Shown here in pieces: positions 6,789 through 22,950 of a stretch of 64,000 nt of DNA. Each line of letters starts with the position of its first letter. Position 1 is the stretch's first letter. Origin of the DNA: Promethearchaeia archaeon (GTDB lineage: Archaea > Asgardarchaeota > Lokiarchaeia > Sigyniarchaeales > SOKP01); NCBI GenBank assembly GCA_029856045.1, contig JAHQWG010000016.1, positions 124,001 to 188,000 of the forward strand. The letters run 5' to 3'. The notes below the pieces were generated by a model. The model was not told the origin of the DNA. It did not search any database and saw only the letters and a list, made by a program, of their open reading frames with translations. The translations under genes and the position numbers were made by a program.

Positions 6789-7538
6789 GTGAAAAAAGTG
6801 GTAATTAAAGTAATAGCATTCGATTTAGACGATACACTTTATAATGCGACAGAATTAGCGAGAGAAGCTAGAATTAGTGGTTTAAAAGCTATGATTAAAA
6901 AGGGTTTAAAAATTGATTTAAAAAATGCAATTTCAATTTTAGATGAGATTGTTAAAGAATATGGCACAAATAATTCTCATCATTATGATATATTCATTCT
7001 ACGTATTAATAGATTTGAACCTCAAATTGATTTTATTAAAACAGATCAAAAAAATAAATATGTATCTGCTGCTGTTATGGCATATCACGAACAAAAAATT
7101 GAATTAATTAAGCCTTTTAATGATGTTATTCCTTGTTTGAAGCAAATTAGGAATTTAGATATAAAAACCGCAATAATTTCTGATGGAATACCAATTAAAC
7201 AATATGAAAAAATATTAAGATTAGGAATTGATGATTTAATTGATTTAATTGTAATTTCGGATGAGATTGGAATCAGAAAACCAAATCCTAAGCTATTTGA
7301 ATATTGTTTGAAAAAATTTAGGATTATAGGAGAAGAATCAATTTATGTGGGTGATAATCCAGAGAGAGATCTCGTTCCAGCTCGTATGAATGGAATGAAC
7401 AGTGTATATATTCATAGAGGTGGAAAATATAATAACATAACCACGGGAGAGAAAATTCTTAATGGAAAAAAACCTGAGTATGAAATAAATACTCTTCTAG
7501 AATTAAACAAAATTATTAAAGAAATTAATTCTAAATAA
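6789..7538 (+). CDS. HAD-family phosphohydrolase
   Basis: A HAD superfamily hydrolase with all four motifs: motif I FDLDDTLY with the nucleophile Asp12 and general acid Asp14, motif II IISDG, motif III lysine in IGIRKPNPKLFEY, and motif IV YVGDNPERDLVPA. Between motifs I and II lies a helical cap of about 90 residues, the layout of the HAD-IA (phosphatase/dehalogenase) group. Likely activity is dephosphorylation of a small phosphorylated metabolite; the substrate cannot be told. The start is GTG at 6789. The next gene, a nitrilase, begins within about 20 bases on the same strand, so the two are probably co-transcribed. Confidence 0.85.
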   Translation: MKKVVIKVIAFDLDDTLYNATELAREARISGLKAMIKKGLKIDLKNAISILDEIVKEYGTNNSHHYDIFILRINRFEPQIDFIKTDQKNKYVSAAVMAYHEQKIELIKPFNDVIPCLKQIRNLDIKTAIISDGIPIKQYEKILRLGIDDLIDLIVISDEIGIRKPNPKLFEYCLKKFRIIGEESIYVGDNPERDLVPARMNGMNSVYIHRGGKYNNITTGEKILNGKKPEYEINTLLELNKIIKEINSK

Positions 7539-7543
7539 ACGGA

Positions 7544-8359
7544 TTGGGTGTTAATTTGAAACTAATCTTAATTCAATCGGAAATGTTTGATAAAGACAAG
7601 GAATGTTTTATTGAAATTCAAAATCTCATAAATAGCATTCCATCTATAGAAGAAAATTGTGATTTAGTTTGTTTGCCAGAAAGATGGATTAAGATGAATC
7701 CAAATCTTGAAAAAAATATTCAAGAAGAGAGGGGGTCTCATTATCAATTCATTAAGAAAATTGCAAAAAAATATCATATTAACATCCTTTCAGGAGGTAT
7801 TTGGGAAAAAAGAGAAAATTCAAACAAAAATTATGTAACATGTTATTTTTTTAATAAAGATGGTGAAGAAATTGGACGTCAAGATAAAATTCACCTATAT
7901 CGTTATGAAAAATTTTTCTTTGAACCTGGAGATACTTTAAATTTATTTAATCTAAATGGACACCTATTTTCAATTTTAATTTGTTTTGATATGGTGTTTG
8001 AAACGCCCCGTTTTGCAGTTAGGAATGGTGCTGAATTTTTAATATCTCCTACATTAATTAGAGAAGAGGGAATGGAGAATTGGGGTGTTTATTTAAGGGC
8101 GAAGTCTCTAGAAAACAGAGTTCCAATCGCAGCGTGCAACTCCTTTGGAATTTTAAAAGACCGAATATTTCCCGGCAATAGTAAAATAATTTCTTTTGTA
8201 AAAGGTTTTTATTCACCATCTAAATTAAAAGTTCTTGAAGCTCCATTTAATAAACATGCTATTTTATTTGATAATATTGATTTAAGATTTCCAAATAAAC
8301 TTAGAAAGAAAAGATTAAAAGAAGCAATAAGTTTGGAGGAAATTAAATTAAAAAAGTAA
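7544..8359 (+). CDS. Nitrilase-superfamily carbon-nitrogen hydrolase
   Basis: An amidase/omega-amidase-type enzyme of the nitrilase superfamily that hydrolyses a C-N bond. The catalytic triad is visible: Glu46 in VCLPERW, Lys115 in RQDKIHLYRYEKFFFEPGD, and Cys147 in SILICFDMVFE, with the spacing expected for the family, and the late KSLENRVPIAACNSFG segment. The longest frame opens with TTG at 7544, but a second TTG at 7556 has GGGTG six bases upstream and gives MKLILIQSEMF, closer to the family's usual N-terminus; I prefer 7556. Substrate is unknown. It follows the HAD gene directly, suggesting a shared small-molecule pathway or repair task. Confidence 0.8.
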   Translation: MGVNLKLILIQSEMFDKDKECFIEIQNLINSIPSIEENCDLVCLPERWIKMNPNLEKNIQEERGSHYQFIKKIAKKYHINILSGGIWEKRENSNKNYVTCYFFNKDGEEIGRQDKIHLYRYEKFFFEPGDTLNLFNLNGHLFSILICFDMVFETPRFAVRNGAEFLISPTLIREEGMENWGVYLRAKSLENRVPIAACNSFGILKDRIFPGNSKIISFVKGFYSPSKLKVLEAPFNKHAILFDNIDLRFPNKLRKKRLKEAISLEEIKLKK

Positions 8360-8409: not shown

Positions 8410-9153
8410 ATGAAATGTAAAAAACATAATTTATCCTATAAATATGTATGCCCGGAATGCTTCCAACCGTATTTAGAGGAGACACCCTTTTCGAGTTTAG
8501 AAGAAATCAGAAAATATCAAAAATTAAATTCTAAAAGAATTAAGACAACAAATCTAAATAATAAAATTAATTTAATTGCTTGTCTGAAAATTAAATATTA
8601 TAATAATGTTGCTTACGCTGGATCAATACTTTATAATATTAAAAACCAGAAATACAAAAATTTTAAGATAAGAAAGTATAAACAAATCATTCCTTATTTC
8701 CCTACTCTTTTATTTTTGAGAGATCTGGAAATTTATTTGAATTTAGCTGAACAGATTAAGTTTAATCCGGATTGTTATATATTAAATGCAAGTGGTCAAT
8801 TGCATCCTTTTCTATTTGGAGTTGCATCTGATTTTGGTGTAAAGTTAAAAGAAGAGATTCCAGTTATTGGAGTATCTAAGAATAATCTTTGTAAGAGTAG
8901 TATACCTATTAATTTAAAAGAATTAAATAAATCTAAGATTGTAGGAGACATAGTATTTAAAAACAAATTAGTAGGTAAATATTTATTAATTAAAAATCTA
9001 AAAAATGGCATTTATATTTCTGTTGGTAATAATATTAGTTTAAATTTCGCTATGATAATTATATCAAATTTATTAAAATATCGAATCCCTGAACCTATAA
9101 GACTATTAAACATTGAATTAAATAAAACTATTAAAAATGAAATTGAAAGATAG
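8410..9153 (+). CDS. Endonuclease V-like protein with zinc-ribbon and altered catalytic residues
   Basis: Endonuclease V cuts DNA or RNA next to deaminated adenine (inosine). Here the fold is recognisable by YFPTLLFLRD, NASGQLHPFLFGVASDFG, IPVIGVSKNNL and RIPEPIRLLNI. Compared with Thermotoga endonuclease V (from memory), each catalytic position differs: the Asp43 position is Lys60, Glu89 is Asp105, Asp110 is Asn126, and His214 is Asn234. The protein adds an N-terminal Cys/His finger (CKKHNLSYKYVCPEC, residues 3-17) not found in the enzyme. It is therefore probably a non-cleaving binder of modified nucleic acid, an inference. It begins 50 bases after the nitrilase gene. Other Asgard genomes may carry an active paralogue elsewhere; none is in this window. 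Confidence 0.7.
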   Translation: MKCKKHNLSYKYVCPECFQPYLEETPFSSLEEIRKYQKLNSKRIKTTNLNNKINLIACLKIKYYNNVAYAGSILYNIKNQKYKNFKIRKYKQIIPYFPTLLFLRDLEIYLNLAEQIKFNPDCYILNASGQLHPFLFGVASDFGVKLKEEIPVIGVSKNNLCKSSIPINLKELNKSKIVGDIVFKNKLVGKYLLIKNLKNGIYISVGNNISLNFAMIIISNLLKYRIPEPIRLLNIELNKTIKNEIER

Positions 9154-21111: not shown

Positions 21112-22950
21112 GTGCCTAATCTTAAAAGAAAATCAAAAATAATTCTAATTTTGTTTTTTTTAGCACAATTTACTATAATTATTCCAAATGTAATTGCAGT
21201 ACTTCAAATAAATATTTTAAATTTTAATACTGATAAAAATGAATATTTTACAGATGAGGATATAATAATAGAAGCTTCTTGGATTTTAAATTACAATCCA
21301 ATTGAAGAATGGGCCTATGTTCAAATACAACTCTATAATAATCTTGATCAATTGTTATGGTGTTCCGAACAAAATGATAGTATGGGGATTATTAATAAAA
21401 CTTGGAATGTTAATATTTTAGATTTGAATTTTAGTTTTTCTGAAAATCCTATCAATTTTAGTGTTATTTTTTATCTTTTTCATATGGTTGGTGAGGAAAT
21501 TTTTAGTTCAGGTCCCATTGCTACAAAATCTATTCAAATTTCGAAAAAATTAATTTCTTGTTCTTTATTTAATTATAAAGAAAGAATTAATTACGGAGAG
21601 CCTATAGATTTTCAAGCTCTATTCTATAATATCACCGATACTATAACTTATTATCCCGATAATCTTTCAATCACCTTAGAACTGTATAAAGCAAATGAAT
21701 CGGTTTTTAGTCAAAACTATAATACTGTAAATGGATGGATCAATGTTAATATCTCAACTACAACATTTTTAATCGTTGGTAAAATAGAATTAAGATTAAT
21801 TGCATCTGAGAATTCTTTTTATTTTGGCAATGTTTTTAATTATGATTTAGAAGTTGAGCAATTAAATTTATTTTGCTCTCTCTATAATTATATAGAGAAA
21901 ATTAACTATGGTGAGCCTATAGATTTTCAAGCTTTATTCTATAATATCACCGACACTATAACTTATTATCCCGATAATCTTTCAATCACCTTAGAATTGT
22001 ATAAAGCAAATGAATCGGTTTTTAGTCAAAACTATAATACTGTAAATGGATGGATCAATGTTAATATCTCAACTACAACATTTTTAATTGTAGGTGAAAT
22101 AGAATTAAGATTAATTGCATCTGAGAATTCTTTTTATTTTGGCAATGTTTTTAATTATGATTTAGAAGTTGGGCAATTAGATTTATTTTGCTCTCTCTAT
22201 AATTATATAGAGAAAATTAACTATGGTGAGCCTATAGATTTTCAAGCTTTATTCTATAATATCACCGACACTATAACTTATTATCCCGATAATCTTTCAA
22301 TCACCTTAGAATTGTATAAAGCAAATGAATCGGTTTTTAGTCAAAACTATAATACTGTAAATGGATGGATCAATGTTAATATCTCAACTACAACATTTTT
22401 AATTGTAGGTGAAATAGAATTAAGATTAATTGCATCTGAGAATTCTTTTTATTTTGACAATATTTTTAGCTACAGTTTGAAAGTTCAAAAGTTGGGATTA
22501 AACTATTATATTAATGAATATGATAAAAATATAAAATATCAAGAAGATATCCCAATCATCATAAGATTTTTCAATCGTAGTAATGGTCAAATTCGATATC
22601 TAGAAATTTTTAATATTAGCATGAAAATTTTTTCAAATAATATTATGATTTACAATAATTTTTATAATAGTGATAAAAATGGGACTCTCATTATAGTAAT
22701 TCCTAGTGAAATATTTGAAGAGAATGGAGAAATATCAATTAACATCAACATTTTCAATAATTCATACTACAAAGATCTATCAATTAAATTAATATTAAAT
22801 GACCAAAATGAAAATAATTTGATCTTCAATTTGAATAATCTAATCTTAATTTTAGTTGTTAGTATTTTTAGTGGTGCAGGAACTTTTTTTATTTTCCTAA
22901 GAAAGAGAAAAATTAATAAAAATTTATTTGAGATAACATTCAAACATTAA
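21112..22950 (+). CDS. Surface protein with three near-identical 105-residue repeats
   Basis: The 612-residue product has a signal peptide (about residues 8-27), an N-terminal beta domain of about 120 residues, three repeats of 105 residues (about 147-461), a fourth divergent copy (462-565) and a C-terminal membrane helix (about 572-592) with a short basic tail. Each repeat contains INYGEPIDFQALFYNITD, LELYKANESVFSQNYN and VGEIELRLIASENSFYF, with many N-glycosylation sequons, in the style of Ig-like surface domains. GTG at 21112 is the start. The DNA copies are nearly identical, implying recent duplication or gene conversion. Likely an adhesin or S-layer-associated protein; that function is inferred only from form. 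Confidence 0.8.
   Translation: MPNLKRKSKIILILFFLAQFTIIIPNVIAVLQINILNFNTDKNEYFTDEDIIIEASWILNYNPIEEWAYVQIQLYNNLDQLLWCSEQNDSMGIINKTWNVNILDLNFSFSENPINFSVIFYLFHMVGEEIFSSGPIATKSIQISKKLISCSLFNYKERINYGEPIDFQALFYNITDTITYYPDNLSITLELYKANESVFSQNYNTVNGWINVNISTTTFLIVGKIELRLIASENSFYFGNVFNYDLEVEQLNLFCSLYNYIEKINYGEPIDFQALFYNITDTITYYPDNLSITLELYKANESVFSQNYNTVNGWINVNISTTTFLIVGEIELRLIASENSFYFGNVFNYDLEVGQLDLFCSLYNYIEKINYGEPIDFQALFYNITDTITYYPDNLSITLELYKANESVFSQNYNTVNGWINVNISTTTFLIVGEIELRLIASENSFYFDNIFSYSLKVQKLGLNYYINEYDKNIKYQEDIPIIIRFFNRSNGQIRYLEIFNISMKIFSNNIMIYNNFYNSDKNGTLIIVIPSEIFEENGEISININIFNNSYYKDLSIKLILNDQNENNLIFNLNNLILILVVSIFSGAGTFFIFLRKRKINKNLFEITFKH
21550..22494 (+). repeat. Three tandem 315-bp repeats
   Basis: Units at about 21550-21864, 21865-22179 and 22180-22494. 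The landmark GAGCCTATAGATTTTCAAGC recurs at 21598, 21913 and 22228, exactly 315 bases apart. Units 2 and 3 differ at only a few positions; unit 1 is somewhat more diverged at its start. They keep the reading frame, adding 105 residues each, so copy number could vary without breaking the gene. Confidence 0.95.

Follow-up and report, generated by a model that had tools for sequence, protein, structure and literature searches.

Background

The closest described relatives of the gene analysed here are the endonuclease V proteins (EndoV or Nfi; PF04493), among them those of T. maritima (PDB 2W35, 6OZF and 6OZG) and E. coli (4XPU) and the human and mouse ENDOV. Several forms of these enzymes that do not cut are known to retain their grip on the substrate. 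Mouse EndoV carrying the D52A change loses all cutting, yet its binding of inosine RNA is stronger than that of the wild type (PMC4842958), the T. maritima D110N and E89Q proteins have been crystallised with inosine DNA (PDB entry titles 6ozf and 6ozg), and EndoV in Ca2+ binds and captures inosine RNA without cutting it (PMC11995373). Binding is not confined to inosine, since the E. coli enzyme can, in the absence of metal, bind single strands that carry no damage (PMC4650699). The EndoV-like protein Endo_dU (DUF99) is able to cut DNA although its DEDD tetrad is incomplete (PMC11585767).

The present work concerns a window of 64,000 nucleotides (positions 124,001 to 188,000 of contig JAHQWG010000016.1, assembly GCA_029856045.1) from a Lokiarchaeal genome, which carries at 8410..9153 on the forward strand a degenerate endonuclease V gene with an N-terminal CHCC motif, referred to here as pEndoV. 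We know of no natural EndoV pseudoenzyme, and no description of one was found in the open-access literature. An earlier, sequence-only reading of the window described the gene as an EndoV relative in which all catalytic positions are changed and a zinc finger is added, and interpreted it as a binding protein made from a repair enzyme; the observation as a whole is confirmed by the analysis below, and the interpretation is partly supported. Judged from the alignments and a structural model together, pEndoV is probably (at a rough probability of 0.6) an EndoV gene turned pseudoenzyme, which would encode a metal-free, non-cutting, nucleic-acid-binding protein.

Family membership and fold

The gene, delimited by its open reading frame and by profile and structure comparison, begins with ATG and encodes 247 amino acids. 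Residues 39-232 (8524..9105, forward strand) match the Endonuclease_5 profile, PF04493, with an E-value of 7.7e-32 and 111 bits against a curated cut-off of 23.4. The NCBIfam equivalog models for EndoV score 92-94 bits, far under their cut-offs of 230 and 300, which is expected if pEndoV is a divergent member of the family. The AlphaFold model, for which 11 sequences were the input, has a mean pLDDT of 88.2 and a pTM of 0.88, and its 35 top matches in the PDB are all EndoV, with TM-scores normalized by target of up to 0.85; an orthologue of 41% identity was modelled equally well (pLDDT 88.4, pTM 0.87). The profile match, the model and the exclusively EndoV character of the top structural matches together bear out the EndoV fold proposed from sequence. 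By descent and fold pEndoV thus belongs to the EndoV family, but it lacks the catalytic residues that define an EndoV.

Two other family assignments were considered and rejected. Membership of the DUF99/Endo_dU family is ruled out by the absence of any match to the PF01949 profile at E-values up to 1, and the Endo_dU structure 2QH9 is a weak fold match to the pEndoV model (TM-score by target 0.62). A family check likewise ruled out membership of a PADLOC defence family.

Replacement of the catalytic residues

The catalytic positions were paired by PDB alignment to T. maritima EndoV, in the chain numbering D43, E89, D110 and H214 (the last in 'RLAH214IY'). In this alignment the four residues pair with Lys60 (8587..8589), Asp105 (8722..8724), Asn126 (8785..8787) and Asn234 (9109..9111) of pEndoV, all on the forward strand, as the sequence-only reading had paired them; Asp43, Glu89, Asp110 and the His214 or Asp of an active EndoV are all absent. 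The first of these positions, Asp43, is the D52 of the mouse enzyme in the established family numbering. Every alignment made shows the changes in the true orthologues as well, so that the catalytic residues are not recovered in homologues by aligning them differently.

Position 60 is Lys in all nine pEndoVs and Asp in all 106 other Asgard EndoVs; position 105 is Asp in four pEndoVs, Gln in four and His in one (Gln and His occurring outside the window's genus), and Glu in 106 of 106; position 126 is Asn in nine of nine, against 97 Asp and nine Asn among the 106. The near-fixation of Asp, Glu and Asp across the 106 proteins excludes chance as the source of the changes. The individual replacements nevertheless differ in what they imply. 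On the alignment, the change from Glu89 to Asp105 is a conservative one in the window protein. Asn126 need not by itself mean a dead enzyme, since nine EndoVs, from nine genomes belonging to several Asgard families, have Asn only at the place of Asp110 and keep the other acids intact. Asn234 alone is weak evidence because the fourth position varies even among active enzymes: it is Asp210 in E. coli EndoV (PMC4650699), it is His in 53, Asp in 51 and Asn in two of the 106 Asgard proteins, and in the pEndoV group it is Asn except for Ser and Lys in two members.

Other residues around the former site have been newly fixed. The residue at Asp141 (8830..8832, forward strand) is acidic in 14 of 14 degenerate EndoVs and in none of the 106 others, and Asn207-Asn208 (9028..9033, forward strand), which occupy the place of the 'SPGH' histidine and its neighbour, are invariant in the pEndoV group. 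It is conceivable that Lys60, Asn126, Asp141 and Asn207/208 constitute a new active site, that of a metal-independent nuclease, a base hydrolase or a lyase. The former catalytic positions have indeed been fixed on new residues instead of drifting, both degenerate groups invariably have an acid at 141, and Endo_dU, which cuts without the full DEDD tetrad (PMC11585767), demonstrates that loss of the acidic tetrad is no proof of lost cleavage and that residual or metal-independent chemistry is possible. On the other hand, Asp141 is the sole acidic residue newly fixed near a former site motif, the place of Glu89 is taken by Asp, Gln or His according to genus, so that there is no conserved acid pair for a metal site, and no known hydrolase signature is matched. 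An enzyme of altered chemistry is on balance unlikely, though still a serious competitor of the pseudoenzyme.

Substrate-binding features and the N-terminal motif

Much of the machinery with which EndoV grips its substrate is retained. The strand-separating wedge, Tyr80-Ile81-Pro82 in T. maritima (PMC4650699), corresponds to Tyr96-Phe97-Pro98 (8695..8703, forward strand), and the wider Pro-Tyr-x-Pro pattern is present as Pro95-Tyr96-Phe97-Pro98, of which Pro95 is not invariant among the orthologues. Tyr96, Pro98, Leu101, Gly129, His132-Pro133 and Gly137 are invariant in the nine pEndoVs, and eight of the nine keep Lys157, which corresponds to T. maritima K139, the lysine that holds the phosphate (PMC4650699). 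The C-terminal RIPEPIRL is kept in the window's genus only, and RIPEP has been lost in the orthologues of the three other genera, so substrate contacts may differ between them. The earlier claim that the DNA-binding fold is kept therefore stands for the wedge and the invariant residues listed above, but not for RIPEPIRL, which is genus-specific.

The four pocket glycines of T. maritima (G83, G111, G113 and G121) correspond to Thr99, Ala127, Gly129 and Gly137, the first two being Ser and Ser in relatives. Intact Asgard EndoVs, however, have Thr at the G83 place in 44 of 106 cases and Ala or Ser at the G111 place in 34 of 106, so Thr99 and Ala127 are neutral with respect to inosine binding. By these counts the altered glycines reflect the Asgard background and do not indicate that base recognition was lost, and their loss was dropped as an argument against inosine binding.

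These features bear directly on the suggestion of the sequence-only reading that pEndoV may be a reader of inosine, whether in RNA or in DNA; the zinc motif of such a reader would serve to recruit or to shield. In its favour are the invariance of Tyr96/Pro98 of the wedge and of Leu101, Gly129, Gly137 and His132-Pro133, and the persistence of inosine binding in EndoVs disabled for catalysis (PMC4842958; 6ozf and 6ozg titles; PMC11995373). The substitution of two of the four pocket glycines by Thr/Ser and Ala/Ser, being common to intact Asgard EndoVs, does not weigh on the matter. What does weigh against it is the metal-free binding of undamaged single strands by E. coli EndoV (PMC4650699), owing to which inosine specificity need not persist, and the genes nearby (those for hydrogenase maturation in five of the genomes, HAD and nitrilase genes in the other four), which indicate no inosine pathway. 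We therefore regard inosine reading as possible, though well short of probable.

Ahead of the domain lies the motif Cys3-x2-His6-x7-Cys14-x2-Cys17 (8416..8460, forward strand). Its four ligands are invariant in all nine orthologues, and the motif is absent from all 32 canonical Lokiarchaeal EndoVs aligned. In the model the region forms a short beta hairpin and then a helix (residues 15-22) that starts near Cys14-Cys17, and from this predicted secondary structure it looks treble-clef-like; among the Pfam finger families there were only sub-threshold matches, with E-values of 0.02 or worse, and none above cut-off. Four conserved ligands in finger spacing in nine of nine orthologues uphold the Cys/His finger that had been read from the sequence, and the motif would be expected to bind zinc and so to add a contact.

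Distribution and selection

In the window's GTDB family PF04493 is matched in 49 of 65 genomes, once in each, and 40 of these matches have normal catalytic residues while nine are degenerate. The nine are the pEndoVs, which are distributed over nine Lokiarchaeal genomes of four genera: four genomes belong to the window's genus (G000, the window's own, with G001, G002 and G004; 86-95% identity) and five to three other genera (G010, G015, G016, G019 and G023; 36-41% identity). A scan of 84,980 prokaryote species, which may not have included the record of the window itself, returned eight loci, all named Lokiarchaeota or Lokiarchaeia, and no pEndoV was found in the viral contigs scanned with the pEndoV profile. 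Two EndoVs from viral contigs were seen to have Asp, Glu and Asp intact and Asn in the SPGH position.

Across this range of identities (36-95%) Lys60, Asn126, Asp141, Asn207 and Asn208 are invariant, as are the four ligands of the CHCC motif. Pairwise dN/dS is 0.16-0.32 for pEndoV, which does not exceed the 0.22-0.53 of normal EndoV pairs. Invariant positions in pEndoV include eight of the 16 functional positions chosen beforehand from T. maritima, as compared with 37 of the 200 other positions of the domain (one-sided Fisher p 0.007). The low dN/dS and the enrichment of invariant columns together imply that pEndoV is maintained and that the former groove is what is being maintained. By the same alignments, the catalytic replacements are themselves frozen by purifying selection.

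These results settle the question of whether the gene is merely decaying or is an artefact of metagenome assembly. The genomes are metagenome-assembled, and several orthologues have no in-frame ATG, GTG or TTG start; in G016, G019 and G023 none occurs before the CHCC motif, and translation may there begin at ATT or ATA. However, the frame is open in nine independent assemblies, dN/dS lies well below 1 and the identical substitutions occur in all nine. Decay or artefact is thus extremely improbable, and as a candidate it was ruled out on the nine assemblies and the dN/dS values.

The conservation pattern likewise bears on a scaffold role, in which the fold would serve protein-protein contact alone and nucleic-acid binding would be gone. 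Zinc motifs of the size of CHCC often bind proteins, which favours such a role, as does the loss of the C-terminal RIPEP in three genera. The most conserved residues, however, are those of the former substrate groove, and the predicted pI is about 9.7 for the window protein and 8.9-9.7 across the pEndoV group. A pure scaffold is for these reasons distinctly unlikely.

Genomic context and origin

The sequence-only reading proposed to check whether the genome encodes an active EndoV at another place. No other EndoV is present in the window's genome, which is 100% complete by estimate, nor in any of the other eight pEndoV genomes, and this rules out pEndoV as an extra paralogue beside an active enzyme. 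A second EndoV-search match in G019 is weak (E 8e-4) and lies inside a 676-aa frame. Endo_dU (PF01949) is full-length in eight of the nine genomes and a fragment in G002, and matches to the EndoQ family, a name that is provisional because they fall below the NCBIfam cut-off, are full-length in eight and a fragment in G001. With both kinds of match in all nine genomes, the EndoV nuclease is probably dispensable.

In G010, G015, G016, G019 and G023, pEndoV lies between a divergent CooC-like ATPase gene and a small convergent gene, and the ATPase gene adjoins HypC and hydrogenase/Hdr genes (HypC-CooC-EndoV). A normal EndoV stands at exactly the same CooC locus in many members of three genera (g6, g7 and g9) and in G044 of a fourth (g8). 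Normal and degenerate EndoV are therefore positional equivalents and, as such, never co-occur. Given this shared locus in five of the nine genomes and the absence of a normal EndoV, pEndoV looks like an alternative, degenerate form of EndoV instead of an additional copy. In the window's genus it occupies a different site, behind a carbon-nitrogen hydrolase gene of the nitrilase family (7544..8359, forward strand, 50 bp upstream) and, further upstream in the same-strand run, a HAD hydrolase gene (6789..7538, forward strand), and the CooC locus of this genus is without EndoV. Both neighbours are found in the four genomes of the genus only, and no joint function with the nitrilase-family gene is claimed. 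Elsewhere in the window, the putative surface protein encoded by ORF 21112-22950 contains, in frame, 2.9 copies of a 315-bp tandem repeat that match at 97% (positions 21570-22468).

A second degenerate group occurs in five genomes of another Asgard family, f15. Its four catalytic positions are occupied by Ala/Ser/Tyr, Asn/Tyr, Glu/Pro and Lys, it has no finger, and an alpha/beta hydrolase gene adjoins it in all five; other members of the same genus have an intact EndoV. The tree joins pEndoV to this group with support of 100/96, and of 100/99 when the catalytic columns are removed, but a tree in which pEndoV is forced to join the normal Lokiarchaeal EndoV passes the AU test (p 0.10, and 0.33 with the f15 group left out), and since both lineages are long branches a common origin is uncertain. 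The degenerate EndoVs may have had a single or a double origin. The CooC tree, which has weak support, does not unite the pEndoV genomes, and the two forms of EndoV may go back to a change in place, to allelic exchange or to a tandem pair. Among other Asgard EndoVs, seven genomes of families f21, f23 and f24 encode the domain in frames of 362-433 residues, which implies an extra domain.

Discussion

How a metal-free, non-cutting pEndoV might work can be outlined as follows. Without Asp43 and Asp110 no catalytic Mg2+ would be held, and the amino group of Lys60 may sit at the former place of the metal near the phosphate, replacing its positive charge. The protein would then clamp a nucleic-acid strand through the wedge Tyr96, Lys157 and a basic surface, without cutting it, and the zinc motif could give a second contact, made with either nucleic acid or a partner protein. 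Inosine could still be what is bound, or else a flipped-out or single-stranded base, and EndoQ-family and Endo_dU proteins of the same genomes would take over the nuclease task that was lost. The notion of a binding protein derived from a repair enzyme is favoured by the fold, the lost metal ligands, the Cys/His motif and the gripping residues; residue loss alone is no proof of lost cleavage. A fuller version, in which pEndoV is devoted to binding inosine, or some other modified or flipped base, without cutting, while the lysine stands in for the metal, the zinc module provides an effector contact and the whole is an alternative form at the EndoV locus, is more tentative still, and somewhat less likely than inosine reading as such.

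If pEndoV does bind without cutting, it would be nature's equivalent of the dead EndoVs with which laboratories capture inosine RNA, and the reading of deaminated bases in Asgard archaea, as opposed to their repair alone, would become testable. The gene also shows how selection has fixed anew a degraded repair enzyme, among close relatives of the eukaryotes and at a locus that holds the active form in sister species.

Set beside the known systems, pEndoV shares with EndoV the fold, the core length, the Tyr-x-Pro wedge, the HP motif, the lysine of GxxS/TK and the SxG motif, and differs from it in the changes of Asp43 to Lys, Asp110 to Asn, Glu89 to Asp, Gln or His and His214 to Asn (Ser and Lys in two), and in the added CHCC motif. 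The f15 group resembles it in having all catalytic positions changed, in the acidic residue at 141 and in its place in the tree, but has other replacement residues, lacks the finger and has the alpha/beta hydrolase neighbour. Endo_dU (DUF99, PF01949; PDB 2QH9) has in common with it an EndoV-like RNase H fold and an incomplete DEDD tetrad (PMC11585767), whereas pEndoV has no PF01949 match and the same genomes encode a separate Endo_dU. In the EndoVs disabled in the laboratory (mouse D52A; T. maritima D110N and E89Q) and in Ca2+-loaded EndoV, the same active-site positions are put out of action and binding is retained (PMC4842958, PMC11995373). The laboratory proteins, however, carry single changes made by hand, whereas in pEndoV all of the positions have been changed by natural evolution and a zinc motif has been added.
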